This document shows, in pieces, positions 14,498 through 33,322 of a stretch of 37,407 nucleotides of DNA. The notes under the pieces were generated by a model. The model did not search any database. It was not told where the DNA came from and worked only from the letters and a program-made list of their open reading frames with translations. Position 1 is the stretch's first letter. The number at the start of each line of letters is the position of its first letter. Source of the DNA: Klebsiella pneumoniae (lineage in GTDB: Bacteria; Pseudomonadota; Gammaproteobacteria; Pseudomonadales; CAMAPQ01); contig CAMAPQ010000018.1 of assembly GCA_945860125.1 (NCBI GenBank), positions 1-37,407 on the forward strand, read 5' to 3'. The translations under genes were made by a program, and so were the position numbers.

Positions 14498-14842
14498 ATG
14501 AATAGTATCGGTATGAATGCTGTTGGCATGAGTAAGTTGCTCGAAGATATGCGTGCTTTGCGCGCTGAGGCAATGAAAAATAATGTTATTCCACTAGAAG
14601 GCATTGAGAAAACTCAGCCTTCTTCTTTTAATTCTTTGCTCACTAAGGCTGTGGGTGCGGTGAATGATATTCAAAAAGAATCGAGTGATTTACAGAGTGC
14701 TTTTGAGCGAGGGGTGGCAGGCGTTGATATTACACAAGTAATGATGACCGCTCAAAAAGCAAGTATTGCTTTTCAAGGGGCAACACAGGTGAGAAATAAA
14801 TTTATAGAAGCTTATAAAGAAATTATGAGCATGCCGATTTAA
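14498..14842 (+). CDS. fliE: flagellar basal-body protein FliE
   Basis: 114 residues, the usual FliE length. The C-terminal half shows the conserved pattern SFNSLLTKAVGAVNDIQKES, then GVAGVDITQVMMTAQKASIAFQ and the end VRNKFIEAYKEIMSMPI. FliE joins the MS ring to the proximal rod in the periplasm and is exported by the flagellar type III apparatus, so no Sec signal is expected. GGCGAGGA precedes the ATG by 8 nt. It opens the fliEFGHI run. Confidence 0.92.
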   Translation: MNSIGMNAVGMSKLLEDMRALRAEAMKNNVIPLEGIEKTQPSSFNSLLTKAVGAVNDIQKESSDLQSAFERGVAGVDITQVMMTAQKASIAFQGATQVRNKFIEAYKEIMSMPI

Positions 14843-14892
14843 TTCACTTTCCATGGCAATTGTTTTTTTAATCAGAAATAGGCATAGAAAAC

Positions 14893-16569
14893 ATGGCGAC
14901 AGCGGAAGGTTCTGGTAGAGGTCTTGCCGTTTTAGAAGGTTTTGCAAAACTTACTATTTTAAGACAGTTAGGGCTTTTAATTGGTTTGGCAGCAAGCGTT
15001 GCGCTTGGTGTCGGTGTTGTTTTATGGACAAAAGAACCTGCCTTTAGACCGCTTTCTAGTGATGTCTCCAACCTTGATGCAAGCCAAATTGCGGATATTC
15101 TGCAAACTGAAAAAATTCTTTATAAAGTTGATACCAATACCGGCATGATTTTAGTGGAATCTTCTCGCATTCACGATGCCAGAATGAAGCTGGCTTCTTC
15201 AGGTGTTTCATTGGGCGGCGGTGCAGGATATGAATTATTAGATAAAGAAAGCTCGTTAGGCTCAAGTCAGTTTTTAGAAAGTGCGCGTTATCATCGCAGT
15301 ATTGAAGGTGAGCTTGCTAAAACCATTGCAAGTGTGAGCAGTATTCATTCTGCCCGCGTACATTTAGCGATACCTAAAAATCGTGTGTTTATTTCTGATA
15401 AACAAGAGGCAAGAGCCTCTGTTTTAGTGGATTTATTTCCAGGACAAATGTTATCAACAGGCCAAGTTTCAGCCATTGTAAGTTTAGTCGCTTCTAGCAT
15501 CCCTGAGCTTGATCCCAAAAATGTTACCGTTGTTGATCAAAAAGGGAGCTTGTTAACTAATAATTCTAGTGATCCTTCAGTTATTTTGGCCAATAAAGAA
15601 TTTGATTATGTAAGAAAGTTGGAGAGCTTATACATCAAACGTGTTGAGAATATTTTAATGCCTGTGCTGGGTGAGGGAAAATTTAAAGTTGAATTAACAG
15701 CGGATGTTGATTTTACGCGGATTGAAGAAACCAATGAGGCTTTTGATAATGAGAAAGAGCCTATTGTGCGCAGCGAACAGGTGCTGGATGAGCAAAACTC
15801 AGCGGGCGCTTCTATGGGTGGTATTCCAGGTGCGCTGAGTAATCAGCCGCCTGCTGCAGGTTCAAGCCCTGAAAAAGCAGTTGCTTCTGCCTCAGGTGAA
15901 GAGAAAAAAGATTCTCAGCCAAAACAAACAAGAAAGCAGGCCACGCGTAATTTTGAAATTAATCGCACGATTAGCCATAAAGAAAACCCTGTTGGCTTAC
16001 TTAAAAAGCTGTCAGTTGCTGTCGTCATTGATAATAAGCAAGAGAAAGTAATCGTTGATAAAAAAGAAGAAATAAAAAGTGTTGCGGTTACTGAAGATGA
16101 AATAACAAAGCTAAACAGTTTAGTAAAAAACGCCATTGGTTTTAATGAAGAAAGAGGGGATCAGGTCAATGTTTATAATCGAGAGTTTTTTAAAGATCTG
16201 AATAAAAAAGAAGAAGTGATTCCTGCCTTCTCTATTTTTGAGCAGCCTTGGTTTTGGGATATTGCAAAACAAGGCATTGGTGGTTTATTAGTGTTGGGTT
16301 TATTACTCGGTGTCTTGCGTCCTATTTTGAAAAATTTGTCTAATATTGGCGATTCTGAAAGGTTGATTGAAAGCAATGTTCTAGAGTCATCCTTGCCTGA
16401 CATGATGGAAGACGATTCAGCGGGGGATATTTCAGGGGGCCCTGAAACTTTTTTACTCTCCGTCGATAACTCTTATGAAGGCCAATTAAATGCAGTTAAA
16501 TCACTAATTGCTGAAGATTCAAAGCGCGTAGCACAAGTGGTTAAACAGTGGATTCAGGAAGCGCCTTAA
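14893..16569 (+). CDS. fliF: flagellar MS-ring protein FliF
   Basis: A 558-residue protein. Two membrane helices (about 26-46 and 461-479) flank a large periplasmic part with the conserved ring-building region (AYELLDKESSLGSSQFLESARY, residues about 113-135, and ARVHLAIPKNRVF). A flexible proline/serine-rich stretch lies at about 295-350. The C-terminal tail (VAQVVKQWIQ) is the FliG-binding helix. FliF forms the MS ring in the inner membrane that seats the rotor and export gate. The ribosome-binding site is weak. fliG follows after 12 nt. Confidence 0.93.
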   Translation: MATAEGSGRGLAVLEGFAKLTILRQLGLLIGLAASVALGVGVVLWTKEPAFRPLSSDVSNLDASQIADILQTEKILYKVDTNTGMILVESSRIHDARMKLASSGVSLGGGAGYELLDKESSLGSSQFLESARYHRSIEGELAKTIASVSSIHSARVHLAIPKNRVFISDKQEARASVLVDLFPGQMLSTGQVSAIVSLVASSIPELDPKNVTVVDQKGSLLTNNSSDPSVILANKEFDYVRKLESLYIKRVENILMPVLGEGKFKVELTADVDFTRIEETNEAFDNEKEPIVRSEQVLDEQNSAGASMGGIPGALSNQPPAAGSSPEKAVASASGEEKKDSQPKQTRKQATRNFEINRTISHKENPVGLLKKLSVAVVIDNKQEKVIVDKKEEIKSVAVTEDEITKLNSLVKNAIGFNEERGDQVNVYNREFFKDLNKKEEVIPAFSIFEQPWFWDIAKQGIGGLLVLGLLLGVLRPILKNLSNIGDSERLIESNVLESSLPDMMEDDSAGDISGGPETFLLSVDNSYEGQLNAVKSLIAEDSKRVAQVVKQWIQEAP

Positions 16570-16581
16570 GGAATAAAGAGA

Positions 16582-17625
16582 ATGGCAGAGCCTAAAAATG
16601 CAAATGCAGCCTCGCAGGATAAAAAAGCGGCTAACGTGGGTGATACTTTAAATCAGGCGGCTGTTTTTTTAATGTCTTTAGGCGAAATGGAAGCTGCTGA
16701 AATTCTAAAGCATCTTGGTCCTAAGGAAGTACAGAGAATTGGCGGTGCGATGGCGAGGCTGCATAACGTTACACGTGAAGAGGTTGAGGCGGTTTTAGGT
16801 AATTTTATTAATGAAGTACGTCATCAAACCAATCTTGGTGTGGGGACAGAAACGTTTATTCGTAATGTTCTAAAACAGGCTTTAGGTGAGGAGCGTTCAA
16901 GGAATGCAATTGATAAGATTCTATTAGGCGGTAATACCTCAGGGCTTGATACGTTAAAGTGGATGGATGCCAGAGGTATTGCTGATTTAATAAGATTTGA
17001 GCATCCACAAATTCAGGCAATTGTTTTAGCGTATTTAGAAGCGGATCAGGCGGCTACAGTATTAAAGTCTTTAGATGAGCGTGTAAGGCTGGATATCATG
17101 ATGCGTATTGCCTCGATTGATACAATTCAACCGCAAGCGTTACAAGAATTAAATAATATTTTTGAGAAACAATTTTCTTCTTCTTCTAATAATCCAACGG
17201 CTCAATTAGGCGGTATTAAATGCGCGGCGGGCATCATGAATTTTCTCGAGGCTTCAGCTGAATCTCAGCTTATTGAGTCAATTAAAGAGATAGATGAAAA
17301 TGTCGCGCAGCAAATTCAGGATTTAATGTTTGTTTTTGATAATTTGAAAGAGGTAGACAATAAGGGAATCCAGGCGTTACTACGAGAAGTCAGCTCTGAG
17401 ACATTAGTGCTTGCCTTGAAAGGCGCAGATGATGAAATGAAAAATAAAGTATTTGCCAATATGTCTAAACGTGCGGCTGAAATGTTAAAAGATGATCTTT
17501 CTTCGCGTGGGCCAGTCAAGATAAGTGATGTTGAAAAATCGCAAAAAGAAATCTTAACGACAGCGCGTCGTTTAGCTGAAATGGGTGAGATTATCTTGGG
17601 CGGTAAAGGCGAGGAGATGGTCTGA
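16582..17625 (+). CDS. fliG: flagellar motor switch protein FliG
   Basis: 347 residues, slightly longer than the E. coli protein owing to an N-terminal extension of about 20 residues. The N-terminal domain (KHLGPKEVQRIGGAMARL) binds FliF. The EHPQ motif at 140-143 and the conserved surface of the middle domain contact FliM. The C-terminal torque domain (from about residue 240; MFVFDNLKEVDNKGIQALL) faces the stator. Its stop and the fliH start share one base (TGATG), so translation is coupled. Confidence 0.93.
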   Translation: MAEPKNANAASQDKKAANVGDTLNQAAVFLMSLGEMEAAEILKHLGPKEVQRIGGAMARLHNVTREEVEAVLGNFINEVRHQTNLGVGTETFIRNVLKQALGEERSRNAIDKILLGGNTSGLDTLKWMDARGIADLIRFEHPQIQAIVLAYLEADQAATVLKSLDERVRLDIMMRIASIDTIQPQALQELNNIFEKQFSSSSNNPTAQLGGIKCAAGIMNFLEASAESQLIESIKEIDENVAQQIQDLMFVFDNLKEVDNKGIQALLREVSSETLVLALKGADDEMKNKVFANMSKRAAEMLKDDLSSRGPVKISDVEKSQKEILTTARRLAEMGEIILGGKGEEMV

Positions 17626-18371
17626 TGAATCAAGAGGCTTCTGATGACAATGATGCAGTAGATAAAAGTGAGTCATTTTCAGCAGGTTGTACGCCTTGTT
17701 CAGCAGATTGTACGCCTTGGATTTTTCCTGCGCTTGATCTAAGTATGGGGGAGGAAGCGAATAAGCCTGAGGCTATTTGGAATCCGACGGCGCAAGATAA
17801 AAGAAAGGTGAGATGGCCTACGGCGCAAGAGGTCGAGGCAATTCGTAAGGCGGCTTATGATGAGGGTTTTTCTCAGGGAAAAACAAAAGGTTTCTTAGAG
17901 GGTAAAGCGGAAGGTTTGAAAGCGGGCGCGCAAGATATAAAGCAAAAAGTAGCGCATTTATCAGAAACAATTGCAAAACTAATGAGTCCTATTGATCTTC
18001 GCGATGAGGAAGTGACGCAGTTAGTTTTAGATTTTATTTTAAGTATTTCAAAAAACATTATTAAAAGAGAGTTGAATATTGATTCTTCTTCTTTAAAAGT
18101 CATGCTGAGCGAAGCGGCTGAATTATTACCGCTTGATTGTCATCGCGTCAAAATAAAGTTAAATCCTCAAGATTTAGAGCTGATTAAAAGTGAGATTGAA
18201 AATTTTCCTGATTATCAAAAAGAATGGAAGTTGGTTGGCGATGGAAAAATAAGCCAAGGTGGTTGTATGGTTGAAACTGAGACACTTCTTATTGATGCAA
18301 CCATTGAAAAAAGGATCGCCGATTTAACCGATAACCTATTTAAAGAGCTTGCCGAGAATAAATCTTACTGA
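17625..18371 (+). CDS. fliH: flagellar export ATPase regulator FliH
   Basis: A 248-residue cytoplasmic protein. A divergent N-terminus leads to a region with spaced small residues (EGFSQGKTKGFLEGKAEGLKAG written in parts: GFSQGK, GFLEGKAEGLKAG, residues about 84-104), the GxxxG helix typical of FliH and YscL. The conserved C-terminal domain (LSISKNIIKRELN, then GGCMVETETLLIDATIEKR) binds FliI. FliH dimers hold and restrain the FliI ATPase. Residues 18-31 come from a 21-bp tandem duplication giving two cysteine-containing heptapeptides, SAGCTPC and SADCTPW, which I do not know from other FliH proteins. Confidence 0.85.
   Translation: MNQEASDDNDAVDKSESFSAGCTPCSADCTPWIFPALDLSMGEEANKPEAIWNPTAQDKRKVRWPTAQEVEAIRKAAYDEGFSQGKTKGFLEGKAEGLKAGAQDIKQKVAHLSETIAKLMSPIDLRDEEVTQLVLDFILSISKNIIKRELNIDSSSLKVMLSEAAELLPLDCHRVKIKLNPQDLELIKSEIENFPDYQKEWKLVGDGKISQGGCMVETETLLIDATIEKRIADLTDNLFKELAENKSY
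17678..17719 (+). repeat. 21-bp tandem duplication inside fliH
   Basis: Two adjacent 21-bp units (17678-17698 and 17699-17719) differ at one base. They keep the reading frame and add a seven-residue repeat with CTP in each unit. Confidence 0.85.
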
Positions 18372-18385
18372 GAAAAATAAGCAGC

Positions 18386-19777
18386 ATGGCACGAAAGCTT
18401 CCACTACAACGCTTGAAACAGTTGTTACCTTGCGCAAATTCACCGCTTCCTTTTTGGACGGCGGGTAAGGTATTAAGCTCTCAGGGTTTATCGATCGAAG
18501 TACAGGGTTTGATTTTACCCGTTGGTACACGCTGTGAAATTTTGGGTCACGATAAAAATATTTTAGCTGAAGTCATTGGTTTTAACCGCAGCTCATTACG
18601 TTTAATGGCGATTGATCGTATTTCAGGCTTAATGCCTGGCACTTTAGTTATTGAGCAAAAAAACTATCAAGGTATTAATGTTGGCATCCATTTGCTGGGC
18701 CGTGTGATAGATGGTTTGGGTAATCCACTTGATCGCTTGGGGAAAATTGAGCCGGGTCATTATCTCTCTACCAGCGAGCAGTGGGCGGTGATTAATCCGT
18801 TAAATCGCAAGCCGGTTTGTGAAACATTTGATGTGGGGGTGCGTTTAATTAACGGTTTATTGACGGTGGGGAAAGGGCAGCGCTTAGGTATTTTTGCAGG
18901 AAGCGGCGTGGGTAAAAGTGTTCTATTGGGAATGATGGCGAAATTTTCTGCCTCTGATGTGGTGGTGGTGGGTTTAATTGGTGAAAGAGGCCGTGAAGTT
19001 AAAGAGTTTATTGAATCTATTTTGGGCGAGAAAGGGTTGGCAAAATCGATTGTTGTTGCCTCTCCTGCGGATGATCCGCCGTTAATGCGTATACAAGGTG
19101 CGCACACTGCAACAGCGATTGCGGAGTATTTTCGGGCGCAGGGTAAGCAGGTTTTATTAATTATGGATTCACTCACCCGTTATGCTCAGGCTTATCGTGA
19201 AGTTGCTTTAGCAGGTGGTGAAGCACCGGCAACGAAGGGTTATCCCCCTTCGGTTTTTGCAAAATTACCGCAACTGGTTGAACGTTCTGGTAATGGAGAA
19301 GCAGGTGGGGGAGCAATTACGGCTTTTTACACTGTTTTAGCTGAAGGCGATGATCAGCAGGATCCAGTTGTTGATGCCTCACGCGCCATTTTAGATGGTC
19401 ATATCGTCTTATCAAGAAGCTTGGCGGAGTCTGGTATTTATCCTGCAATTGATATTGAAGCGTCGATTAGTCGCGTCATGTCGAGCGTTGTTGATAAAGA
19501 GTGGATGCAATCAGCGATTGAGCTGAAAAAAAACTATTCGCTTTATAAGCAAAATGAAGATCTCATTCGCTTAAATGCCTATGTTTCTGGCACTGATTTA
19601 CAGCTTGATATTGCCATACAGATGTATCCTAAAATTATGCAATATTTAACGCAAGAAATGAGTGAATCGATTTCAATTAAAACAAGTTTTGATAAGTTAA
19701 AAGAAATTAGAAACACCATTGAACAATTAAAAAAAGCAGGTGAACAAAAACCTGGTTTTGCAGTGAAGAAGGCTTAA
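18386..19777 (+). CDS. fliI: flagellum-specific ATP synthase FliI
   Basis: 463 residues, F1-beta-like. It has Walker A GSGVGKS (172-178), GERGREVKEF, Walker B region VLLIMDSLTRYAQA and the catalytic-domain sequence GGEAPATKGYPPSVF. FliI forms a hexamer at the export gate, frees substrates from chaperones and is regulated by FliH, encoded 14 nt upstream. The ribosome-binding site before ATG 18386 is poor, so translation may depend on fliH. fliJ, which usually follows, is absent; the next reading frame is a broken dehydrogenase. Confidence 0.93.
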   Translation: MARKLPLQRLKQLLPCANSPLPFWTAGKVLSSQGLSIEVQGLILPVGTRCEILGHDKNILAEVIGFNRSSLRLMAIDRISGLMPGTLVIEQKNYQGINVGIHLLGRVIDGLGNPLDRLGKIEPGHYLSTSEQWAVINPLNRKPVCETFDVGVRLINGLLTVGKGQRLGIFAGSGVGKSVLLGMMAKFSASDVVVVGLIGERGREVKEFIESILGEKGLAKSIVVASPADDPPLMRIQGAHTATAIAEYFRAQGKQVLLIMDSLTRYAQAYREVALAGGEAPATKGYPPSVFAKLPQLVERSGNGEAGGGAITAFYTVLAEGDDQQDPVVDASRAILDGHIVLSRSLAESGIYPAIDIEASISRVMSSVVDKEWMQSAIELKKNYSLYKQNEDLIRLNAYVSGTDLQLDIAIQMYPKIMQYLTQEMSESISIKTSFDKLKEIRNTIEQLKKAGEQKPGFAVKKA

Positions 19778-19818
19778 TCAACAAAAAATATCATGCATTT
19801 TATGTTTGTGGATTTACT

Positions 19819-20573
19819 ATGAGTATTGACCTGGATTCTGGTAAAAAAAATAATAGGGTTGCGTTAGTGACTGGCTCTACTTCAGGTATAGGAATGGCTA
19901 TTGCCAAGCAGCTCGCTCTGGATGGTTTTACGATTGCTTTTCACTCAAAAACTTCTGTGGACACTGGTTTAAAATTGGCGAGTATGTATCCATTTGCATC
20001 GCGGACTTATCTCACCCAAATCAAGCGCGTTTTCTTATTTCTGATGTATTAAATAAGCATGGGCGTATTGATGTTTTGGTCAATAATGCTGGAATAAGCG
20101 CTACTATTCCTCATAAGGATTTAAAAAGTGCAACAGTAGAAGTTTGGCGTAATTTATACGACGTGAACGTTATTGCACCTTGGCTTCTAGTAGCTGAAGC
20201 AGAGGCGGCCCTTAAAAAATTATCAACGGTTGAAAATACCAGCTGTATTATTAACATTAGTTCACATGCTGGACTACGTCCAAAAGGAGCATCTATTCCC
20301 TATGCTGCGAGTAAAGCTGCGCTCAATCATGTTACTAAACTTTTAGCATTGGCCCTATCGCCTGACGTTAGAGTAAATGCCATCGCGCCAGGCTTGGTTG
20401 AAACCCCCATGACAGATAACTGGCTTGATGCTAAAAAATTATGGAAAGAACGATCTCCCATGGGGCGTGGGGCAAAAACTTCAGAAATTGCACAACTTGC
20501 ATCCATGCTTATCTCAAATAATTATCTTACCGGTGAGATTATTTTAAGTGATGGAGGATTAAATCTAACCTAG
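19819..20573 (+). pseudogene. short-chain dehydrogenase/reductase broken by a frameshift
   Basis: Frame 1 gives the start with the cofactor motif VTGSTSGIGMAIA. It leaves homology near 19990 and stops at about 20052. The remaining domain continues in the frame one base back: ADLSHPNQARFLISDVLNKH, VLVNNAGIS, the catalytic NISS...Y-AASK triad region and VNAIAPGLVETPMTD. Joined, this is about 250 residues, the normal length of a classical FabG-like SDR. A single-base deletion around 19985-20000 explains it; a sequencing error would do so too. The substrate cannot be told. It is not a flagellar gene, though it follows fliI by 41 nt. Confidence 0.8.
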
Positions 20574-21999: not shown

Positions 22000-22686
22000 T
22001 TATTTTAGATAGTTGTTCACAAAGTGAGCGGCTTCTAAATGAGCAGGGTAACGCATTAAAACTTGTTGATAAGCTAGATATGTTTTATCGTTACGTCCTA
22101 ACCAATATTCACTTCTTGCTAAATACACCCATGTGTCAACATTGCTTGGGTAATATTGCACAATTAAATCTGCATGATCGCGCATTTTTTGCCATTCACG
22201 ATGATGTTCTTCTACTTGTAATAAATAAAGATGCGCTGTGTAATGGCGTGGTACTTTTTCTAAAACGCTATAAGAGCGAAACTCAACTTCTTTCCAGCGA
22301 CTCTGTGCAATTAAAGGTGCTAATAGTCCTATTTCGGCATCTACTGATTTTGGATTATGTTCTAATGCTGCATTATAATGTTCAATAGCACGGCTCCAAT
22401 CACCTGCTAAATAGGCTAACCAACCTAAGCGTAATTCGGTAAATTCTAGCGTTTTCTCATTTTTTTGTTTTGTCAGTACGGACGCTGCCCCTGTATAGTC
22501 TCCTTTGGCTTCAAGTTGATAGGATTGTGCCCAGCTATTTTCTTCTGTGCTAACTAAGCTGGTTGAATTGGCCAAGCCGTTTGCATTAGCCAAGCTGCTG
22601 ACATCGGCTAAACTGTTTGCACTAAGCAAAAATAAAATGATTAATTGCAAGTATGTCTTCATATATTGTTTTATGTTTTTTTTCAT
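22000..22686 (-). CDS. secreted TPR protein (last gene of the operon)
   Basis: 228 residues. A signal peptide (about 1-27: basic start, then LQLIILFLLSANSLA) predicts export to the periplasm. Four six-residue repeats follow (NSLADV, SSLANA, NGLANS, TSLVST; residues 24-47). The rest is TPR-like helix pairs (RLGWLAYLAGDWSRAIEHYN and similar). It aligns along its length with the TPR protein at 28882-29559, so the operon carries two paralogues. TPR proteins of this kind act as scaffolds; next to a predicted beta-barrel the role could be envelope transport. AAGG lies about 7 nt upstream of the ATG. Confidence 0.75.
   Translation of the reverse strand: MKKNIKQYMKTYLQLIILFLLSANSLADVSSLANANGLANSTSLVSTEENSWAQSYQLEAKGDYTGAASVLTKQKNEKTLEFTELRLGWLAYLAGDWSRAIEHYNAALEHNPKSVDAEIGLLAPLIAQSRWKEVEFRSYSVLEKVPRHYTAHLYLLQVEEHHREWQKMRDHADLIVQYYPSNVDTWVYLARSEYWLGRNDKTYLAYQQVLMRYPAHLEAAHFVNNYLK
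22546..22617 (-). repeat. four imperfect 18-bp repeats at the mature N-terminus of the TPR protein
   Basis: Units encode NSLADV, SSLANA, NGLANS and TSLVST. They keep frame and follow the signal peptide. DNA identity among units is partial. Confidence 0.5.
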
Positions 22687-22709
22687 AATGTGCCTTTTTT
22701 AATCTATTT

Positions 22710-23615
22710 TTACCAAGCTTTAGAAATATTCAAATAAGCAAAATTTAATTTGTAAGCTAGGTCAGTTGAAAGATTTTGATGTTCGCTCTGACCATAGAGC
22801 ATAAGTAAATCCCACCGATTAGATAAGTGCCATTCAACGCCGATACGGTTATACATGGTTTGTTTTTCATTCACATTCCATAGCGAGTGACTATCGGTAT
22901 CATAAGCGTAGAGACGATCGCCTATGACACTACCGACAAAAATACTATCAATATCTAACCAAGCGTTATCGCCAAAAAAATGTTTGAACAAAAAATCAAT
23001 CGCTTGATAGCTTTGATCTTGATATGTTTCACTAATTTGGTAATAACGCATTTGTAACCAATTTGCGGCTAATGAAAAGCCAAGTGCGGCATCAATTTGT
23101 GTTGCTTGAATATCTTGCTCATAGTCAGATCGTGCAAAGTGAAAATCTCCTGCATATTTTTGTGTATAGCTTAAGTAGTTTAATCCACCCCCGTAGGCAA
23201 TAACATCGCCTAAGACAGGATCGGATAAAGTACCATTTGCATTCATCAACCAAACATTAGGCGTTAAGCGGCCCTTAAAAAAGTCGCTAAAATAATGTTT
23301 GGCGATATCTATTTGTATGGAGGTTTGATCTAAGCTTTTATCAAGCAGTATTGTCTCATCATAAAAGTGTGTGCTGGTTCTGTTCCCTATAAACGTTACT
23401 TCATAGCGATCAAGATACCCAACTTGCCAATCTAAACCGACCGTTGTCGTCGTTTCTTTTGAGGTGTTTTGTGCATATTGTCCTTGCAAAACATGTCCTG
23501 ATAATGCGCTACCCCAAGGGGAACCCTCTGCTAATGTGTTGCTGTGAATTAAAAAAGCGCAACAACCCACGAGCAGGTGATTTATTTTTTTAATCAGGCT
23601 TGTTTTTTTTATCAT
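22710..23615 (-). CDS. exported outer-membrane beta-barrel-like protein
   Basis: 301 residues from the ATG at 23615, which overlaps the upstream stop by one base (TAATG); a GTG 15 nt earlier is the alternative. A signal peptide runs to about residue 29 (ending SNTLA). The mature part alternates polar and aromatic/hydrophobic residues as in amphipathic strands (DRYEVTFIGNRTSTHFYD; QMRYYQISETYQDQSYQAID; DLLMLYGQSEHQ) and ends in the aromatic residue of ISKAW, typical of outer-membrane barrels. I do not recognise a named family; a resemblance to YaiO-like barrels, which also occur with TPR domains, is only an impression. It lies between the C45 and TPR genes. Confidence 0.65.
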   Translation of the reverse strand: MIKKTSLIKKINHLLVGCCAFLIHSNTLAEGSPWGSALSGHVLQGQYAQNTSKETTTTVGLDWQVGYLDRYEVTFIGNRTSTHFYDETILLDKSLDQTSIQIDIAKHYFSDFFKGRLTPNVWLMNANGTLSDPVLGDVIAYGGGLNYLSYTQKYAGDFHFARSDYEQDIQATQIDAALGFSLAANWLQMRYYQISETYQDQSYQAIDFLFKHFFGDNAWLDIDSIFVGSVIGDRLYAYDTDSHSLWNVNEKQTMYNRIGVEWHLSNRWDLLMLYGQSEHQNLSTDLAYKLNFAYLNISKAW

Positions 23616-24595
23616 TAGTAGTTTACCCACAGTTCTTTTTCTTCAAAAAATTCAAATGATTGATAAACTCTGAGATGTTGTGGCCAGCGATATTCCATCG
23701 CTTTTAATTGTGGGTTATAAACGGCGGTATATAGCGTACCAAACCCCTCGTCATAGCCAGAAACAAATAAAGGCGCATATTCAAAAGCATTAATAAAAGC
23801 ATCAATTGTTATCATAGGATCATAGAGTTTTTCAATGAGACGCTGTCTGCGTTCATGAGAGCGAGAAAAAATAGCATAATCTGTTAATTCAAAATCACCC
23901 TGATGATTTACGGCTAAAGGAATATGTGAAATAACGGCTGGGGAGTGAGGTGCTAATTCTAATGTACATACCTGTGAGTAAGCATCTAATAGTGTAATGT
24001 TATAAGCCATGTGTGTGGGAATACGACATAACACTTTCACCGCTTCTGCTGTCGTTTTACAAAACTCAAGCACATAACGCAAAATGAGTGGAATGCCAAA
24101 ACCTTCACCCACAGTGTCTCTTCCACCAAAAGATAAAGAAACAGATAAACCATATTCATTCATACCGTCTAATACGCCCCACAAGCAATCTGTTGTCGCA
24201 ATGACAGATGTTTTATGCCAGTTACTTTTTAAAATCCGCCCTTCACAAAGCGCGGGTGAATAATCATAATTTCGCACTAAAATAGGATTATAACGCGACC
24301 ATACTGCTTGCGAGCAGCCTGCAATATAAGGCGCTGGGCAATAAAAGCTCAGTAGTCTGGCATCAATATCATCGCCATTGCACAATTTTACTAACCGCAT
24401 CCATAGTGGAACCAGTTCTGGCATGTGATGCTGTAGCGCTTGATGACACTGTTGATACGTGGGACGGTGTAGCTCTCCTTCTTTTAAAAACCAATCTCGG
24501 TATCCTTGTCGATGGGTATTAAAAAATTGAAGCCATTGGATATCGGGTGTAGGTTCTGCAATAAAATTAAAATGTTTGAGTCGATGATTATTCAT
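23615..24595 (-). CDS. C45-type Ntn acyltransferase/amidohydrolase
   Basis: 326 residues. The nucleophile region IAGCSQAVW (C94) followed by ILVRNYDYSP (R108-D111) is the C45/isopenicillin-N acyltransferase-like pattern: autocleavage before the cysteine exposes an N-terminal nucleophile. Further family sequence is seen in LWGVLDGMNEYGLSVSLSFGG and LRYVLEFCKTTAEAVKVL. Members hydrolyse or form amide bonds, for example on 6-aminopenicillanate or N-acyl amino acids. There is no Sec signal, so a cytoplasmic location is likely. It starts 3 nt after the ATP-grasp gene and overlaps the barrel gene by one base. With a decarboxylase and a ligase in the operon, acylating or releasing an amine is a sensible but unproven role. 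Confidence 0.75.
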   Translation of the reverse strand: MNNHRLKHFNFIAEPTPDIQWLQFFNTHRQGYRDWFLKEGELHRPTYQQCHQALQHHMPELVPLWMRLVKLCNGDDIDARLLSFYCPAPYIAGCSQAVWSRYNPILVRNYDYSPALCEGRILKSNWHKTSVIATTDCLWGVLDGMNEYGLSVSLSFGGRDTVGEGFGIPLILRYVLEFCKTTAEAVKVLCRIPTHMAYNITLLDAYSQVCTLELAPHSPAVISHIPLAVNHQGDFELTDYAIFSRSHERRQRLIEKLYDPMITIDAFINAFEYAPLFVSGYDEGFGTLYTAVYNPQLKAMEYRWPQHLRVYQSFEFFEEKELWVNY

Positions 24596-24598
24596 AAC

Positions 24599-26125
24599 TT
24601 AATTAATTGTCTCATTCATAGAGGTCATTTTAATGGAACTGGCTGGGTTATAACGGTTCACTAAATTAATTTCTTCGGTCGTTAGATCGCGGAATGAAAA
24701 TGTTGCATGCACCGCATTAACAAGTAATAAAGCGGAAGGGGTTAATTTTTCTGCGGGTGTTTTTAATATGGTATTAGTAAAGACAATAGCCATATCTGCC
24801 CCAGGATAAATATATTCCTGTTCATTCATAATGCGCATCAAAAAAACCTCGTTGGGCGCTAATGCTTCACGGCGTTGATAAGACGCTTTTTTTAGCACTA
24901 ACTTTTTTGTTCCCTCATCAAATTGATAAACGCCTGAAATAGGGGCTTGCGTAATGACTTGTAAGCCTTGTTCGCGATATTTAAAAATCAATTGGCTAGC
25001 AATGGTTTTTGCACCTTTTTCTAGCGCTAATTGATTATATTCGCTAGGATCAATTGCAAAATTAACTTCGCTAAATTCTAATAAATGCCATAAAAATAAG
25101 GGAAGGGTTTTATAACTAAAGTCGCATAGATTTGTCATGGCACTAATGCCGGTAATCCGGGGGTTAATCTCGCCTAAATAAAGCTCGCCAGAATCTAGAT
25201 CCAATAAATAATCCACTTCAAAGTAACCACGGTAATCACGCTGATATAATATGTCGCCCAGTTGTTCTGTCATTTCTTGTGCTTGTTGGCGGATTGAGTC
25301 AGAAAAAGCCGCTTGATAAAGCTCATTGCCACACCATCCGCCTTGATAAGGCGTTAGTTCTGAAAAACCAATTAATTCAGTGAGTAGTGGGCCAACAAAT
25401 GTGCCACAGCGTGTGGTGCAACCCTCTATGGCTGCACTTGCGCAACGAATACGGCGCATGATTTTTACTTTTTTTTCTGCCTCAATTTTTTCTGCAACAC
25501 GATCATAATCTTCGCAATTTGAAATAAAAAATGTGGTTTTTCCTGAGTCACCATAAGGCGTTTGAACGACTAAATGCTCCCCTAACCCATAGTAATCACT
25601 GATTGCTGTGAGCTCATCATAGCTGCTCACTTTGGCGAGCGTATTAGGTACACTGGCAACGCCTGCTTCATTTGCAATTTGAGTGGTAATAATTTTGCTA
25701 TCCACTTCTGTTACCGTGCTAAAAGAGGGCAGGGCAAGCTTTAAATTTAAAGCAATGCAGGCTTTCTCAATTTCATCATTGAAAAATAAAAATACTGCCT
25801 GACCTTGTGCTTGGTCGCTTTGTAGGTTACCCATGAGGGCATTTTTTTTGATGAGTGCTGCAACGTCAGGATGATTTAATAAAAAGGCATTAATCGCTTG
25901 GCTTGATTCAAATACCGTTGAGCCCCGATTAATCGGTAAAATAATGCTTGAATTTAATCCATCAAAACAATCAATTAAATTAATTGATGTCCAGTTTTTT
26001 ACCCAGTTTTCTAAGTTAAGTAAATTAAAATTAGTCGCGCCTAAAAAATAAATAGGCGTTGTAAGATTTGAAAAATAAGCTTTAACATCTTCAAATTTTA
26101 ATAATGGTTTGGTAGGTAGAGACAT
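24599..26125 (-). CDS. ATP-grasp family ligase
   Basis: 508 residues from ATG 26125, which has AAGGA about 6 nt upstream; a TTG 24 nt further up is unlikely. The ATP-grasp fold is shown by LVVQTPYGDSGKTTFFI (nucleotide lid), GYFEVDYLLDLDSGELYLGEINPR (given in parts: GYFEVDYLLD, LYLGEINPR), the Mg2+/ATP-binding carboxylate run, and TGISAMTNL after it. The C-terminal part resembles biotin-carboxylase-like ends. These enzymes make an acyl phosphate and join it to an amine or thiol. There is no carboxyltransferase or biotin carrier nearby, so a true biotin carboxylase is unlikely; an amide or peptide ligase fits the neighbours better. Confidence 0.75.
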   Translation of the reverse strand: MSLPTKPLLKFEDVKAYFSNLTTPIYFLGATNFNLLNLENWVKNWTSINLIDCFDGLNSSIILPINRGSTVFESSQAINAFLLNHPDVAALIKKNALMGNLQSDQAQGQAVFLFFNDEIEKACIALNLKLALPSFSTVTEVDSKIITTQIANEAGVASVPNTLAKVSSYDELTAISDYYGLGEHLVVQTPYGDSGKTTFFISNCEDYDRVAEKIEAEKKVKIMRRIRCASAAIEGCTTRCGTFVGPLLTELIGFSELTPYQGGWCGNELYQAAFSDSIRQQAQEMTEQLGDILYQRDYRGYFEVDYLLDLDSGELYLGEINPRITGISAMTNLCDFSYKTLPLFLWHLLEFSEVNFAIDPSEYNQLALEKGAKTIASQLIFKYREQGLQVITQAPISGVYQFDEGTKKLVLKKASYQRREALAPNEVFLMRIMNEQEYIYPGADMAIVFTNTILKTPAEKLTPSALLLVNAVHATFSFRDLTTEEINLVNRYNPASSIKMTSMNETIN

Positions 26126-26208
26126 TTTTTTCCTTCTGTTTTTTCTCAAAATATAAGTGAAATAATTTAGTTAAAAATTAAACTGTTGATCGCTGATATT
26201 GCTCATTT

Positions 26209-28869
26209 TTAATGATTCATTCCTTGTAAAAATACATCCGTAAAAATTTTCAAACCTAGGCCAGGTTGCAGGCCATGAATTTCTTTAATTCTCATTTTTT
26301 GTAAATACACTAAAATATCCTGAGTGATAATTTGGCCTGGCACGATAATAGGAAAGCCGGGTGGGTAAGGTGTTACAAAAGAAGCAGATACTAAAGTTTT
26401 ATGTTCAAGAGCAGCCTGTAATGTGGTGCTGTTTAGTGGTATGTAATAAGTATTTATATCATTAAAACCCGCATAATAAGCCATGCGAATATCCAAGGCT
26501 TTATAGTTCAAGCCGTCATAGGGCATAAATCCTTTATGAAATAAACGATGCTGAGGCAGTTCAATAATGGGTGGTGAATGTGGTAATGCAGCAGGATTTT
26601 TTTGCTTGTTTAAATGTTCTGAAATTTCAGATAAGACATGCCATAAGTAATCAACCATTGCTTCTGTTGCGCCAATATTAACGATAAATAAAACAGTTTG
26701 CCGTGAGGTTTTATTCACTTGAATATCATATTTGTTAATGAGTAACTCACGAAAGCTACTGCCATCCATTCCTGTACCGCTTACATCGATTGTAAGTCGT
26801 GTTGGATCAATCACAAAATCTGATTCTCCCCACGCTGTGGGTAAATCATTGTAACGGTAGCAATCTACGCTTGCGGGAATAAGCGTGTGGCAATATTCAT
26901 TGGGGATAAGTTCAGTGGTGCACAGTAGTTGAAAATACGGCTTTAATAAGGCGCTGTTTGTAATGCGCGCTCGTAGCCTCATTGCTAAACGAATAGCACG
27001 CTTAACGCGCTCATAACCTTCTAAGCTCGCTTGTCTGCGCCCTACATCTAAAGACGCGAGCAGTTGATAGTTAGGTGAAGTAGAGGAGTGCATGCGATAG
27101 GCTTCAAGAAACTGTGCTTTACCAAATTGCTCATCAAAAATATGCAGCATTGAACCTTGGCGAAATGCGGTTAATGTTTTATGGGTAGATTGCGTGGCGT
27201 AAACACGTAAGACAACTTGATCAGGATCGGGATATAAAAGCTCGTTTAGTGTGTTTTGGCTGCAATTTTGTTGATAAAAAGCACGATAGGCCTCACTACG
27301 TAAGCGTTTAGCTAAACGGTTTGCCACACTCATTGCCGTACGCTTTGCATACAGCGGATTAAAGTGCGCAAAAGCAAACCATGCTTCATCCCAGTGAAAA
27401 ATAATATCTGGTTTAATCGCTAATATTTCTAGCATGTATCGTTCGGTATGATAAATAAGACCATCAAAGGTAGAGTTCGTTAGCGTGATTTGTTTAACGC
27501 GTGGGAGTAAACCTTGTTCGCGCAAATTAATGAGAATATCTTTGATGTGTTGTAGGGGAACGGCACCGTATAAGTCGTAACGATCAAGCGGATAAGTTTC
27601 AAGAAAAATAGGAAAAGCGCCTGATAACATCACAGCATAAGGAATTGACTTATGACAGTCTGAAGAAATTAGCACAATATCGCCTGGTTGCAAATTTGCT
27701 TGCATCACAATTTTATTAGCGGAAGTTGTACCATTAGTGATAAAAAAAGTATGTATTGCACCGAATGCTTCAGCGGCTTTATCGTGCGCTTGTTTAATTG
27801 CCCCTTTGGGATCTAATAGCGAATCTAAGCCACCTTGTGTTGAGGAGGTTTCGCTCAGAAAAATACCCGGGCCATAAAAATCGAGTAAATCGGTAATCCA
27901 ATGAGAGTCTTGTAACGAGTGTCCTTGTGAAAGGGGCAGCGCATGAAATACGCTATGTGGCTTACGACTATAAGTGCGTAAGGCATCAAAAAAAGGCGTG
28001 GAGTAACGATCACGGATACCACCCAATAAAACGTTATGTAAATCTTGAAAAGGATTCAAATAATGTAGTAGCCTTGTAAAATGGTGACGTACAGTGATAC
28101 TTACGTCAGCCAAAGGTATTTCACTGATAAGGTAATGAGACAGCTCAGGTCTTAAGCCGTGAATGGCTTGTTGTAAACCGATCAATGGTTGTTGTTCAAT
28201 GGCTGAAAAATCCACTCGATGCAATACAAAATTTTTATATTCATTAGCAAATACAGTGCTTACGCTATAAATTTGAAAGCCATCTATAAAAACGCAGGCT
28301 TGAATGCTAGGGTTTGCAAGAATCGCTGTCAGTGCATCTTCTGCCGTGTTTACAAATAATATGTCGTAATAAAATTCATCTTTTTCTGTTTTATATATCG
28401 CTAAACTATTACGATAAAGCAGTTCGTATTCAGCTGGGTTAGGATGAATAATCAGCACTTCAAAATAAGTTTTTTTTACACGACGACGATCTTTTATACC
28501 CAACGACTTACCTTCTGTAAGGGTTGGTTTATTTAGCATCATAAAATTGGTTTGAAAGGGGACAAAAGCTTGTTGTCGGTGTAATTGTTTGGCTAAAACA
28601 TAATAAGTATTTTTGCATAATAAGTGCAGCAGCACCCATTGCGTTGCTTGTAAGTTATAGTGAATATGCGACATCACTTCAAATCCAGGATAGGCCCAAA
28701 ACCGCTCAATAGGCATGAGCTTTTCAAGCAGTATTTGGCAAACTTCTAATGAAGTTGTTTGCGCAAAATCTGTAGCAGCTGCTAACTGTTGCCATAAATT
28801 AAGTCGCCTACTTTCTAAGTCAAAATCCTCAAAGAAAAGATCGTTTTTTATCATAACGTTTTTTGTCAT
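26209..28869 (-). CDS. Orn/Lys/Arg decarboxylase, enlarged PLP enzyme
   Basis: 886 residues, longer than AdiA (about 755) or CadA (about 715). The PLP domain has FFITNGTTSANKIV, SSDCHKS, IIFHWDEAWFAFAHF (PLP-ring aspartate) and the Schiff-base lysine K564 in ATQSTHKTLTAF. The C-terminal domain is complete (FVTPYPPGFPIIVPG). Residues about 1-135 are an extra N-terminal part without a family I know, followed by a receiver-like wing domain (about 136-260) as in the inducible decarboxylases. It turns a basic amino acid into its amine and CO2; the QSTHKTLTAFRQ context is nearest to the arginine type, but substrate is not settled. It starts 12 nt after a TPR gene. An 83-nt gap to the ATP-grasp gene is the widest in the operon. 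Confidence 0.85.
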   Translation of the reverse strand: MTKNVMIKNDLFFEDFDLESRRLNLWQQLAAATDFAQTTSLEVCQILLEKLMPIERFWAYPGFEVMSHIHYNLQATQWVLLHLLCKNTYYVLAKQLHRQQAFVPFQTNFMMLNKPTLTEGKSLGIKDRRRVKKTYFEVLIIHPNPAEYELLYRNSLAIYKTEKDEFYYDILFVNTAEDALTAILANPSIQACVFIDGFQIYSVSTVFANEYKNFVLHRVDFSAIEQQPLIGLQQAIHGLRPELSHYLISEIPLADVSITVRHHFTRLLHYLNPFQDLHNVLLGGIRDRYSTPFFDALRTYSRKPHSVFHALPLSQGHSLQDSHWITDLLDFYGPGIFLSETSSTQGGLDSLLDPKGAIKQAHDKAAEAFGAIHTFFITNGTTSANKIVMQANLQPGDIVLISSDCHKSIPYAVMLSGAFPIFLETYPLDRYDLYGAVPLQHIKDILINLREQGLLPRVKQITLTNSTFDGLIYHTERYMLEILAIKPDIIFHWDEAWFAFAHFNPLYAKRTAMSVANRLAKRLRSEAYRAFYQQNCSQNTLNELLYPDPDQVVLRVYATQSTHKTLTAFRQGSMLHIFDEQFGKAQFLEAYRMHSSTSPNYQLLASLDVGRRQASLEGYERVKRAIRLAMRLRARITNSALLKPYFQLLCTTELIPNEYCHTLIPASVDCYRYNDLPTAWGESDFVIDPTRLTIDVSGTGMDGSSFRELLINKYDIQVNKTSRQTVLFIVNIGATEAMVDYLWHVLSEISEHLNKQKNPAALPHSPPIIELPQHRLFHKGFMPYDGLNYKALDIRMAYYAGFNDINTYYIPLNSTTLQAALEHKTLVSASFVTPYPPGFPIIVPGQIITQDILVYLQKMRIKEIHGLQPGLGLKIFTDVFLQGMNH

Positions 28870-28881
28870 AAAAAAAGTGGC

Positions 28882-29559
28882 TTATTTAGGCTGATTTTTT
28901 TTGGGTGTGAGCAGTTGCATTCCTTGTTTGGCGGAAACATTCTCAGGGTCTAATAACAGAACATAATTAAAAGCGCCATACGCTTTTTGCGTATCGCTTT
29001 GTGCCAAAGTTAACCAACCATATTCTAATAGAAATGAAATATCACTTGGTGCAATGGCTAGCATTTTTAGCGCAATTTTAGCCCCTGCCTCATATTTTTT
29101 ACTGAGTCTAAGTGCGGATAATAAGTACAGGTTAGCGTAGTAGTTATAAGGATCTATTTTTAAAATCTGATAACCTATCGCTTCGCTATCGCTATATTGT
29201 GTTTGTGTATTTAATACGAGCATCATTGCAGTTCGTGGGCTAAGTGATTCAGGTGCGATGGTATGGGCTGCATCATAATATTTAACGGCATTGGCATATC
29301 TTTGGTTGAGATAATTCAAATAGCCTAAACGAATATTAATGGTGTAAGTTTTAGGATACGCTTGATAGACCATCGCCAGGGCATTAATTGCATTGGTATA
29401 ATTCCCCACTCTTTCATATGCATACGATTTATAGTAAGCCTCAGTAATTTCGCTATCGTTCATTGTATTTTCAGCAGAGGCTGTCGAGTTTTTAAAGAGG
29501 CCACTTATTAGCATTAACGTTAAATACAGTACGAGCATTTTTTTAATTCTATTTTGCAT
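28882..29559 (-). CDS. secreted TPR protein, paralogue of the operon's last gene
   Basis: 225 residues. A signal peptide (about 1-29; KKMLVLYLTLMLISGL, cleavage near STASA) predicts periplasmic export. TPR-like helix pairs fill the rest, e.g. RLGYLNYLNQRYANAVKYYD and LLEYGWLTLAQSDTQKAYGA. The order of motifs matches the protein at 22000-22686 (RLGYLNYL versus RLGWLAYL, NLYLL versus HLYLL). GGAT precedes the ATG. The gap is 7 nt to the transporter gene upstream and 12 nt to the decarboxylase gene downstream. Confidence 0.75.
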   Translation of the reverse strand: MQNRIKKMLVLYLTLMLISGLFKNSTASAENTMNDSEITEAYYKSYAYERVGNYTNAINALAMVYQAYPKTYTINIRLGYLNYLNQRYANAVKYYDAAHTIAPESLSPRTAMMLVLNTQTQYSDSEAIGYQILKIDPYNYYANLYLLSALRLSKKYEAGAKIALKMLAIAPSDISFLLEYGWLTLAQSDTQKAYGAFNYVLLLDPENVSAKQGMQLLTPKKNQPK

Positions 29560-29566
29560 CGTTTTA

Positions 29567-31684
29567 TTATCCTGTTATTGATGAAGACAGATGTTTAAGT
29601 TCGTAATCATTAAATTGGATGAGTTTAAATTTTAGATAGGGATCTAATGTTATGCGAGTTTTGTCTTCATGATTAAAAAAATTATTACTTAATAGACCTG
29701 TTATTACGCTTTCGCCGGCAAATTGATAATGTCCTGTGCTGCGTAAATATTGAGGCATAAAGGTATCTAATAAACTGGCAAATAGATTTTGAAAATGAGT
29801 TAGGAAGATATGATTTGGCAATGTATCGTGCCAATGTAATTCGGCTTGATAGTTTAAAGGCATTTTGGGTAAACATAAATAAATTATTTTTAGGTAGGTA
29901 TCATTCCCTTGTAAGTGATACATAAAAAAAGCACCTTCTCTTTTACCAAAATAAAGCTTGCTGTTGCCGCGTGAAAAATAAAAAGTAGAATCAAAGGCCA
30001 TGCTTATTTTTAGCTGAATTTTTTCAATCAGTTGGCCTTTTTTATAGACAGCATAATCAAGTACTTCATCTAAAATAAACGTTGTTATTTGATCGTAATA
30101 AGGTACGGGCCATATAGATGTGAGAATATCACCTTCTTTTGGCTGTGCATGAGCATAAAATAGTTGATTATGATGAAAGTGCTTAAATGTAAAAGGTAGC
30201 GTTTCTGAGCCTACCCATGCCGTTGTTTGTGCTTGAATATGAATATGCGGTTCCGGTGAATAACCTGAATTGCCACATAGGCCAATCATATAACCTGCTT
30301 CAATCCAATTACCGGCAACAACTGTAATGCTGTGCTGTGCAAAGTGTGATAATTCAATATAAGCGCCACGCTCATCATAGATAACAATATAATTACCCCA
30401 GTTATTAATCGTATCGACACTACCGATAGGATTATCCGGTAAGTGTGAGATAACCGTAATTACGCGTCCACTAATCGGCGCAAGCACCCATTTTTTATAA
30501 GCATAATAATCTTCGAGTTTTAAGCCTGTATTACTAAAAGACTTTCCATCAGCATCCTGCACAATAAAGTCATACGCATAACGCCACATACCTTGATGCG
30601 TCCAGCGGCCATTAAAGCCTTGCCAGACTGTCCAAAACCCGATAAAAGGCAACGATAAAGTGTGGGGCGTTGTCGGGAAACGATGTTCGTTTGTTAAGAA
30701 ATAGTCGAGTGTTTTTTCAGGTGTTTCTTTGAAAATAAGCGGTCTTAATCGTGAATCAACCAAGTTTAAAAGATAGACAAAAGATAAGGTAATTAACGCA
30801 AAGGGAAGGGTGAAAACAGGTAAGCCATATTGAGACCAGAAAACGTCAGCTGCGTTAATTAACAGTGTTGAAACAGCAACTGCTACCCCTGCAATAAGAT
30901 AGCTTTTGGGCGAAGGGCGATTAAAAACACCGCCAATCGCAATTGCTGTTAATACATAATTAAAATTACTCGCACTATTAAGTGATTGAGTGTAAGAGCC
31001 AATAAAAGCAGCATTGACACTACAGCCCACAATAAAACCAAAGAGAGCTAAAAGAAAAATAATGCGTGATCTAAACAAAATAATAATTGAAATTAAAGCA
31101 CCCGCAAGTGCGTTGGGCATAAAAATAATTGAGCCTACCGCTTTAAAAAAAGCATTCATGTACTCAGGTAAAAAAATAAGCTCTTGAAAAGAGTCTATTG
31201 AAATATATAAATTGGCTGTATATAAATTAGAAAATCGTGCCGTGGCAAGATAGATAATGCTTGTGACAATCACAAAAGGAATGCTGAGAACTTGTAGCCT
31301 TAGATAGTATTGAAAAGTCGCACTAAGAAAAACAGTGAGCACAAAAGCTAAGATACTGCATCCAGCCAATAAGCCAAATGTTAGCCATGATAATTGAAAT
31401 AAATGACCAATCGCTAAACCAACCAATAGAGGGTTATAAGTGTAATAGCCTGAGTTCAAAAAATTTTTATTAAAGCCAATTAAATGAGCAAAAGCATAGG
31501 CAACAATGGTAGAAAATAACCCGCAAAGTGCAGCGTTATAATTGAGCAAACCTATAAAAAATATTAATAAGCCACTTATTTCTCCGCGTATAAAAAAAAG
31601 CTCGCTATAGCTATTGAGAATGGCAGATAGATAGCTTTTTATTGCAAGATATACAGCTGTATTGGGATATTTAATAACGGGCAT
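29567..31684 (-). CDS. urea-transporter-like channel fused to an M23 peptidase domain
   Basis: 705 residues. Residues about 1-310 are polytopic and match the urea transporter family (LLNYNAALCGLFS, LNSGYYTYNPLLVGLAIG, and a second repeat with FNYVLTAIAIGGVF). Residues about 340-500 are an M23/LytM-type domain with zinc-ligand candidates H363 and D372 (THQGMWRYAYDF) and H480/H482 (PHIHIQ). The last 200 residues are unassigned. The channel would sit in the inner membrane with the peptidase domain probably in the periplasm. No urease or agmatinase lies nearby, so a small amide or amine other than urea is possible. The start has a poor ribosome-binding site; it lies 18 nt after the chemoreceptor stop. 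Confidence 0.8.
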   Translation of the reverse strand: MPVIKYPNTAVYLAIKSYLSAILNSYSELFFIRGEISGLLIFFIGLLNYNAALCGLFSTIVAYAFAHLIGFNKNFLNSGYYTYNPLLVGLAIGHLFQLSWLTFGLLAGCSILAFVLTVFLSATFQYYLRLQVLSIPFVIVTSIIYLATARFSNLYTANLYISIDSFQELIFLPEYMNAFFKAVGSIIFMPNALAGALISIIILFRSRIIFLLALFGFIVGCSVNAAFIGSYTQSLNSASNFNYVLTAIAIGGVFNRPSPKSYLIAGVAVAVSTLLINAADVFWSQYGLPVFTLPFALITLSFVYLLNLVDSRLRPLIFKETPEKTLDYFLTNEHRFPTTPHTLSLPFIGFWTVWQGFNGRWTHQGMWRYAYDFIVQDADGKSFSNTGLKLEDYYAYKKWVLAPISGRVITVISHLPDNPIGSVDTINNWGNYIVIYDERGAYIELSHFAQHSITVVAGNWIEAGYMIGLCGNSGYSPEPHIHIQAQTTAWVGSETLPFTFKHFHHNQLFYAHAQPKEGDILTSIWPVPYYDQITTFILDEVLDYAVYKKGQLIEKIQLKISMAFDSTFYFSRGNSKLYFGKREGAFFMYHLQGNDTYLKIIYLCLPKMPLNYQAELHWHDTLPNHIFLTHFQNLFASLLDTFMPQYLRSTGHYQFAGESVITGLLSNNFFNHEDKTRITLDPYLKFKLIQFNDYELKHLSSSITG

Positions 31685-31702
31685 TCTTTTTTATTTTTGT
31701 GC

Positions 31703-33322
31703 TTATGCGATTTTAAACTTACTCGCTAAATGGTTTAACTGCTTTGCAAGCTCTTCTAACTTATAAGCAGAAGTGGCTGTTTGAGCGACTGTAATGCTAT
31801 TTTCTTCAGCCCCATCAGCAATATGTTCTATTTTGTTTGAGATTTCACGGGTAGCAGATACCTGTTCTTTTAGTGCAAAAGCAATTTCATCCATGGTGAT
31901 AATAACGTGCTGATTACTTTTTTGAATGGCAGTGACAGAGTTTCCTGCTTTAGTGGCAAGGTTCACGCCCTCATTGACGAGTCGCACGCCAGACTCCATC
32001 TCTTGCACGGCACGTTGAACGCCTTGCTGAATTTTACAAATCATGCTGGTAATTTCTTGCGTTGATTTAGCAGTACGATTAGCGAGCGTGCGCACTTCAT
32101 CAGCAACGACAGCAAAACCACGGCCTTGTTCACCGGCACGTGCTGCTTCAATTGCAGCATTCAGTGCAAGAAGATTCGTTTGATCGGCGATGCCCTTAAT
32201 AACATTAACAATACTTGAAATTTGACCAGAAAAACCTTCCAATTCGCCAACGGTTTTTGCTGCATCCTTCACTGCGCTGGAAATTAAACGCATTTCATCT
32301 GTTGCACTATTAATGATTCGTCCACCTTCTGCTGATTCTCTGCCGGAGGCTTGTGTAACCTCACGCGCTTCTCTTGCATGTGTTTCAACCTGGTTGATAG
32401 AGACAGATAATTCTTCAATAGCAGCAGCAATAGATGAGGCCGCATCAGATTGAGTACTACTAACTTCTGAGCTGTTATTGGCTGTACAGACAAGTTCTCC
32501 TGCTGCTTGAGTTACTGTTTCAACATTTTGGTATAAGGTTATAACAATCTCTCTTAAGTTATTGCGCATGGCTGATATTTTCTTTAATAATTCGCCCACT
32601 TCATTATTGTTCGCAACCGGCATAACATAAGACAAGTCGCCATCATAAATTGCTGAAGCTGCTTCTTCTGCTTCATGCAGGCTACGATAAATACGATTGA
32701 TGGTGGGTACAGAAAATAGTAACACCAAGGCGCAGCCAAACACGACTGCAAGACCTAGCTGTAAGTAGCTAGACTTTTCTGTCTGTGTTAGTAGCCCAAG
32801 TTTCTCACTTGCATATTTATTGCCACTGATTACGGTTAAAACGACACCTTGGCGATGTGCTTCATAATGCTTACGGAGAGTCTGCATTGAAAATTTGGCT
32901 GCTTCTTCTTGATTTTCTTTAATAGCCGGAATAAATTTTTCCAATGCTTCACGCCAGAATAAGTCAGCATGTTTGCGCTGTTCACCCATTAAGCTGGTTT
33001 TCAGTTCATGATCAAGGCTGCTAGCTGTCCAGTATTCGTTACGGCTGTCGTAATCATTTTTGAGGCTTTTCAGTTTATCAATAAGAGGTTGGCGCTCGGC
33101 CATGCTTACTGTTAGTAAATCATAGCTAATAAGTTGTGCTTCAATAAGATACAAAGGGGGCGGGAGGATGTCCGCTACGACATCTTTGCCTTGCCCCATT
33201 TGGTCAGCCGCTTCTTTCATTGCGCTTAAGGATAAAAAACCTATGGTGCCTAGCATTATTAAGGCAATCAAAACGATAATTTGATTAATAATTAACGATT
33301 TATTTTTTAAGTTTTGCAGCAT
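31703..33322 (-). CDS. methyl-accepting chemotaxis protein
   Basis: 539 residues, classical layout. TM1 lies at about 10-32 ([16 protein letters not shown]), followed by a periplasmic four-helix-bundle-type sensor (about 33-185), TM2 (about 188-206), HAMP (about 207-262) and a cytoplasmic coiled coil with the tip [20 protein letters not shown] and [12 protein letters not shown]. No C-terminal NWETF pentapeptide is present (end LASKFKIA). The ligand is unknown. It heads the long minus-strand operon with only 18 nt to the transporter gene, so what it senses may be related to that pathway. AAGAGAA lies upstream of the ATG. Confidence 0.9.

Follow-up and report, generated by a model that had tools for sequence, protein, structure and literature searches.

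A conserved bacterial gene set built around a UT-M23 fusion protein, with a possible role in making and moving a small amine or amide metabolite

Eight genes lie close together on one strand of a stretch of 37,407 nucleotides (the window), and their products range from a chemoreceptor and a channel-peptidase fusion to three enzymes and three envelope proteins. The locus raises two questions: whether these genes belong together, and what they would do if they did. In the original prediction they form one operon, in which a cytoplasmic trio of enzymes makes an amine and joins it to an acid, the envelope proteins move the product, and the receptor senses it.

The open reading frames bear out the proposed layout (Table 1). 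All eight are on the minus strand and, with ATG starts for the ATP-grasp and barrel genes, are spaced by 18, 7, 12, 83, 3, -1 and 23 nucleotides, as predicted. The families named earlier were recovered with Pfam and NCBIfam, except for the barrel, which has no match in either. A promoter and terminator scan gave fewer promoter-like sites than shuffled sequences did, and was left unused.

Table 1. Genes of the locus, with positions in the window
Feature	Position	Strand	Basis
Methyl-accepting chemotaxis protein (MCP), 539 aa; local addition, outside the conserved unit	31703..33322	-	Pfam MCPsignal/HAMP
UT-M23 fusion, 705 aa	29567..31684	-	Pfam UT and Peptidase_M23
TPRa, TPR protein, 225 aa, signal-like N-terminus	28882..29559	-	Pfam TPR
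PLP fold-I amino acid decarboxylase, 886 aa	26209..28869	-	OKR_DC_1; PLP-lysine motif HKTL
ATP-grasp ligase, PRK06524 type	24599..26125 (ATG) or to 26149 (TTG)	-	NF005096
C45 family Ntn acyltransferase/hydrolase, 326 aa, nucleophile Cys94	23615..24595	-	NF040521; GCSQ motif
Predicted outer-membrane beta-barrel	22710..23615 (ATG) or to 23630 (GTG)	-	Homology to type A/B barrels; C-terminal W/F
TPRb, TPR protein, 228 aa, signal-like N-terminus	22000..22686	-	Pfam TPR

Seven of the eight genes are a conserved bacterial gene set, and the chemoreceptor gene is a neighbour only. An initial genome scan using the ATP-grasp protein alone gave no match. Scanning with a UT-M23 alignment gave 357 related stretches, and the analysis went on with the 80 best. 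The order UT-M23, TPR, decarboxylase, ATP-grasp, C45, barrel, TPR is reproduced exactly in four Shewanella loci and in L099. Genome G304 carries the last six of these genes on one contig and UT-M23 at the end of another, and in G287 the genes are split over two contigs, with the break inside the ATP-grasp gene. The barrel and TPRb genes are placed ahead of UT-M23 in L114, while L077, L078, L080, L086, L090 and L098 hold parts of the unit, some truncated by contig ends. The whole or partial set also occurs in other Gammaproteobacteria and in one Bdellovibrionota genome, and strong matches to the ATP-grasp family are found in 9 other genomes of the same class, G304 among them. TPRb adjoins the barrel in L035, L036, L073-L076, L099 and L114; the G287 locus L036 has a tandem duplication of both genes (2042-5634). 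Since the order recurs in independent genomes, a chance neighbourhood is ruled out.

The chemoreceptor does not share this history. No MCP gene adjoins UT-M23 in about 100 related loci, where the sole MCP match (in L135) is non-adjacent. The genes upstream of UT-M23 vary, and include a short-chain fatty acid transporter, histidine kinases, AmpD/AmpE-like genes and a YHS-domain gene. The receptor was therefore rejected as a component of the system; of the proposed eight-gene operon, a unit of seven recurs. By eye, positions 11859-20000 of the window are a flagellar cluster, in which a FleS/FleR-like two-component pair precedes fliE, fliF, fliG, fliH and fliI-like genes, and a chemoreceptor is no surprise in such surroundings. 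Between an ABC-F gene and the flagellar regulator genes, in DNA of lower GC content, lies a gene for a 1337-residue protein (7526-11539). Close to the N-terminus this protein has a predicted NTPase motif (AEPGAGKTYLL), and its C-terminal region resembles a nuclease (VVEVKGQ); it is a possible defence gene. A reading of the operon as a defence system was rejected, as PADLOC gave no match.

The UT-M23 protein is modelled with high confidence. In its AF2 model (67 sequences; pLDDT 93.2, pTM 0.89), the UT channel is complete and is joined to an M23 domain. By approximate residues, the UT-type channel spans 8-334, the M23 zinc-peptidase 339-513 and a predicted beta-rich C-terminal domain 515-700; fold comparison barely covered the protein beyond about residue 525, and this last domain was given no fold assignment. 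Membership of the UT family is clear from PF03253 (208 bits against a cut-off of 25, E 1.7e-61). In structure, the channel part matches UT channels with Z 35-36, and human UT-B with Z 36 over 313 residues. The M23 part has a sequence match at E 2.3e-07 and matches M23 domains with Z about 12-14 (Foldseek was also used), its nearest folds including wall hydrolases of LytM type. The HxnD and HxH site is complete, and the zinc-site and catalytic residues (H363, D372, H447, H480 and H482) are invariant in 74 proteins.

This channel is unlikely to carry urea, because neither of the two UT-B glutamines is conserved, and urease and ureohydrolase are both missing from the genome. The first position is Glu or Asp in 66 of 74 family members and the second Ala, Ser or Thr in 71 of 74; the window protein has E28 and S185. 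The source genome (97% complete) has a single UT gene and neither a urease nor an arginase-family ureohydrolase, for which reason urea metabolism was rejected. UT-M23 would thus be a channel of UT fold with a non-urea pore. The canonical fold would suit an ordinary urea channel placed by chance next to unrelated genes, but this is very improbable given the replaced glutamines, the missing urea enzymes, the gene order in other genomes and the presence of decarboxylase or ATP-grasp neighbours in 66 of 78 loci.

The side of the membrane on which the peptidase lies can be predicted from the channel. Known UT proteins have both termini in the cytoplasm, and the alignment of UT-M23 to UT-B ends at residue 334, equivalent to residue 382 at UT-B's C-terminal end. 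With loop sides assigned from the two-fold repeat, the regions placed inside have a mean number of Lys and Arg residues per protein of 3.3 (N-terminus), 1.2 (TM2/3 and TM6/7 loops) and 2.4 (stretch after the last helix). The long central loop averages 0.9, and the three loops placed outside have means of 0.07, 0.18 and 0.35. Homology and charge bias together predict a cytoplasmic M23 domain, away from peptidoglycan; an envelope-facing peptidase is not supported.

This placement bears on another explanation, in which a periplasmic M23 domain cuts peptidoglycan, the TPR and barrel proteins form an envelope scaffold and the enzymes modify a wall peptide. Such a cell-wall role would agree with the complete, invariant zinc site and the likeness to wall hydrolases, but it is improbable, as the C-terminus is predicted to be inside and positive charges come after the last helix. 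M23 relatives in haloarchaea, which have no peptidoglycan, also speak against it. Membrane-anchored M23 proteins of haloarchaea and Thermus (L070:5539-6633, L071:5800-6759) belong to the same M23 subfamily as the fusion, and in these stand-alone relatives too the M23 domain is preceded by membrane helices and a run of basic residues. Because haloarchaea lack peptidoglycan, this subfamily may have a different substrate.

The fusion is spread over many phyla, and its neighbours fall into two types. Fold-I decarboxylase, PRK06524-type ATP-grasp or C45 genes, as in the window, define type B (13 of the 78 loci with a called UT-M23). Type A (53 loci) has a PylC/carbamoyl-phosphate-synthase-type ATP-grasp protein, a LysA/FslC-like fold-III decarboxylase or both, often with a PqqD-domain protein. 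The remaining 12 loci have neither set, several owing to contig ends. The enzymes of the two types are unrelated, the two decarboxylases being non-homologous. TPRa-like proteins and homologous barrels accompany UT-M23 in both types and recur across phyla, and TPRa, with profile matches in type A and type B loci, is the most constant partner. Core genes are tightly packed (median gap 3.5 nucleotides in type B and -4 in type A).

In the UT-M23 tree, every type B row falls in one set of 17 rows (SH-aLRT 100), in which the window is nearest to Shewanella. This set also includes L085 and L101, for which no enzyme neighbours were called; L096 was entered as type B because its genome is G304. L118, titled Klebsiella pneumoniae, and L121, titled Akkermansia muciniphila, group with Verrucomicrobia rows and are probably mislabelled metagenome bins. 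Since type B forms a single cluster, it is simplest to suppose that the same envelope module has acquired either of two distinct sets of decarboxylase and ligase. The constant chemistry would then be to decarboxylate and ligate. The combination of decarboxylase, ATP-grasp ligase and Ntn hydrolase in the original prediction fits. Its idea of an amine and a ligation is supported independently by the type A loci, where the channel, TPR and barrel proteins go with another ATP-grasp protein and a decarboxylase that is not homologous to the one in the window.

The enzymes of the window were compared with known families. The decarboxylase belongs to PF01276 (OKR_DC_1; 245.9 bits, cut-off 27, E 8.8e-73) and keeps the PLP lysine (QSTHKTL), while falling below the NCBIfam equivalog cut-offs for LdcC (201 against 968) and arginine decarboxylase (148 against 1167). 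Its match to PDB entries 9n0n and 9n0o (phmmer E about 1e-181) covers residues 43-883, near full length. Both entries are listed as "probable amino acid decarboxylase", M. tuberculosis Rv2531c, a protein with a solved structure and no known activity (PMC12910592). The ATP-grasp protein is clearly related to NF005096 ("biotin carboxylase" PRK06524; 517.7 bits, E 1.9e-155), short of the cut-off of 684, and its nucleotide and metal motifs are intact, with YGDSGKTT, E311, E327 and N329 invariant. Its model has a biotin-carboxylase-like fold that also matches an L-amino acid ligase; as this model, built from only 10 sequences, is of moderate quality (pLDDT 74.5), the ranking of relatives was not used for function. 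The C45 protein scores 165.6 bits against NF040521 (cut-off 85). Neither the ATP-grasp nor the C45 protein found a useful relative when its sequence was searched against the PDB. In L073-L076 (four Shewanella), Gly replaces the nucleophile Cys of C45 (GGSQAVW) in an otherwise intact operon; with the type A loci that have no C45, these copies argue that C45 is dispensable.

The enzyme trio, whole or in part, also occurs without UT-M23, beside amidases or nitrilases, arginine catabolism genes, glutamate dehydrogenase, proline dehydrogenase and peptide ABC transporters. These neighbours suggest, in general terms, a part in the metabolism of arginine, ornithine or lysine, or of the amines derived from them. 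Plasmids of Rhizobium and Sinorhizobium also carry the trio or parts of it, close to genes for glutamate dehydrogenase and peptide ABC transporters (L065, L066, L067), and in L065 transposases come after the ATP-grasp gene. The CATCH-N paper on rhizobial arginine does not mention ATP-grasp or C45.

Barrel homologues begin with a signal-like segment and end in an aromatic residue, W or F, as is typical of outer-membrane barrels. The barrel is predicted to lie in the outer membrane, and the TPR proteins would be periplasmic.

Taken together, the system may make a small amine or amide metabolite and move it across the envelope, a tentative proposal that falls somewhat short of an even chance. The PLP enzyme would decarboxylate a basic amino acid in the cytoplasm, either free or already linked as an amide; the match of the type A enzyme to N-citrylornithine decarboxylase offers a precedent by analogy for the latter. 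The ATP-grasp enzyme would join the amine to a carboxylic acid at the cost of ATP, and C45 could then trim or acylate the conjugate, a step that seems dispensable. In the inner membrane, UT-M23 would act as a non-urea channel, with the zinc-peptidase at its cytoplasmic mouth processing the conjugate as it enters the pore. The periplasmic TPR protein and the outer-membrane barrel would complete the route, and in this genome a chemoreceptor gene would have been put at the front of the operon. The identity of the product, the direction of export and the coupling of peptidase and pore are hypothetical. Passage through UT channels is passive and restricted to very small solutes, which limits the products that could be exported.

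The main rival runs in the reverse direction. Here the barrel, TPR and channel proteins would import an amide or peptide-like amine, M23 and C45 would hydrolyse it, the decarboxylase and ATP-grasp enzymes would feed arginine or polyamine nitrogen metabolism, and the receptor would give chemotaxis. Uptake and breakdown is doubtful as an overall account, but the genomic neighbours of the UT-M23-free trio, arginine catabolism genes and peptide importers among them, count against export and suit it at least as well. In L027 and L069, the trio or the ATP-grasp and C45 pair occurs with an agmatinase-family enzyme, 5-guanidino-2-oxopentanoate decarboxylase, aldehyde dehydrogenase and D-amino acid dehydrogenase; gabT and peptide ABC transporters are found in L068 and L066, and glutamate dehydrogenase in L066. 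The adjoining receptor would suit an attractant. No such catabolic genes were found near UT-M23 in the loci examined, however, and the source genome has no arginase-family ureohydrolases. An ATP-using ligase is also unusual for a purely degradative route, although the glutamylated putrescine pathway offers a precedent for one.

Alternatively, the decarboxylase and ligase might build a rhizoferrin-like carboxylate metallophore, exported via the module. The nearest PDB relative of the type A decarboxylase is indeed N-citrylornithine decarboxylase, and type A proteins score 200-248 bits with NCBIfam FslC, but these scores stay under the cut-off of 500. Neither an NIS synthetase nor a TonB receptor is found among the annotated neighbours, and the UT pore is small for a chelator. 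This explanation is slightly less probable again than a role in the cell wall.

A more specific form of the export proposal is that UT-M23 is a biosynthesis-coupled channel. Its cytoplasmic zinc peptidase would cleave the amide conjugate made by ATP-grasp at the mouth of a repurposed pore, the product would leave via channel, TPR and barrel, and interchangeable decarboxylase and ligase modules would define different products across phyla. In this full form the proposal is unlikely. If the export proposal is right, it would mean that a urea-channel fold serves another solute, that an M23 peptidase acts inside the cell, and that a metabolite release route can keep a fixed channel while its enzymes are swapped. 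As the module is present in many phyla, the trait is likely to be widespread.

Searches of open-access PMC full texts turned up no account of UT-M23, nor of either type of cluster. Within that literature, the earlier statement that no described pathway has this set holds, and provisionally there is no described system of such make-up. Parts of the system do resemble known ones. UT-M23 shares with the UT/SLC14 urea channels (UT-B and dvUT, 3k3f) the two-fold fold, at the Z scores given above, and the half-helix motifs YN..LVG and FN..L, but differs in both UT-B glutamines and in carrying the M23 and beta-rich domains. With LytM/LasA-type M23 zinc peptidases it shares the fold and the full set of invariant residues, whereas its peptidase is fused to a channel and predicted to be cytoplasmic.

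The exporters PgaA, BcsC and AlgK/AlgE combine a periplasmic TPR protein with an outer-membrane barrel, a pairing also predicted here. In this case the two are separate small proteins, there is no sugar polymer synthase, and the TPR similarity is generic only. Among solved structures, FslC, the N-citrylornithine decarboxylase of rhizoferrin synthesis, comes closest to the type A decarboxylase, and it follows a ligate-then-decarboxylate logic; it is non-homologous to the fold-I enzyme of the window, and type A proteins score below its cut-off. In the Puu putrescine pathway, gamma-glutamylation is followed by hydrolysis. An amine, an ATP-dependent ligation and a later amide hydrolysis would be common to both systems, but the enzyme families differ, and those of the window are accompanied by UT-M23, TPR and barrel proteins. 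Finally, the Rv2531c-type decarboxylases (9n0n, 9n0o) are near full-length homologues of the window enzyme and share its PLP lysine. The window enzyme differs in being clustered with ATP-grasp, C45 and UT-M23, and the unit thus supplies a genome context for these solved decarboxylases.
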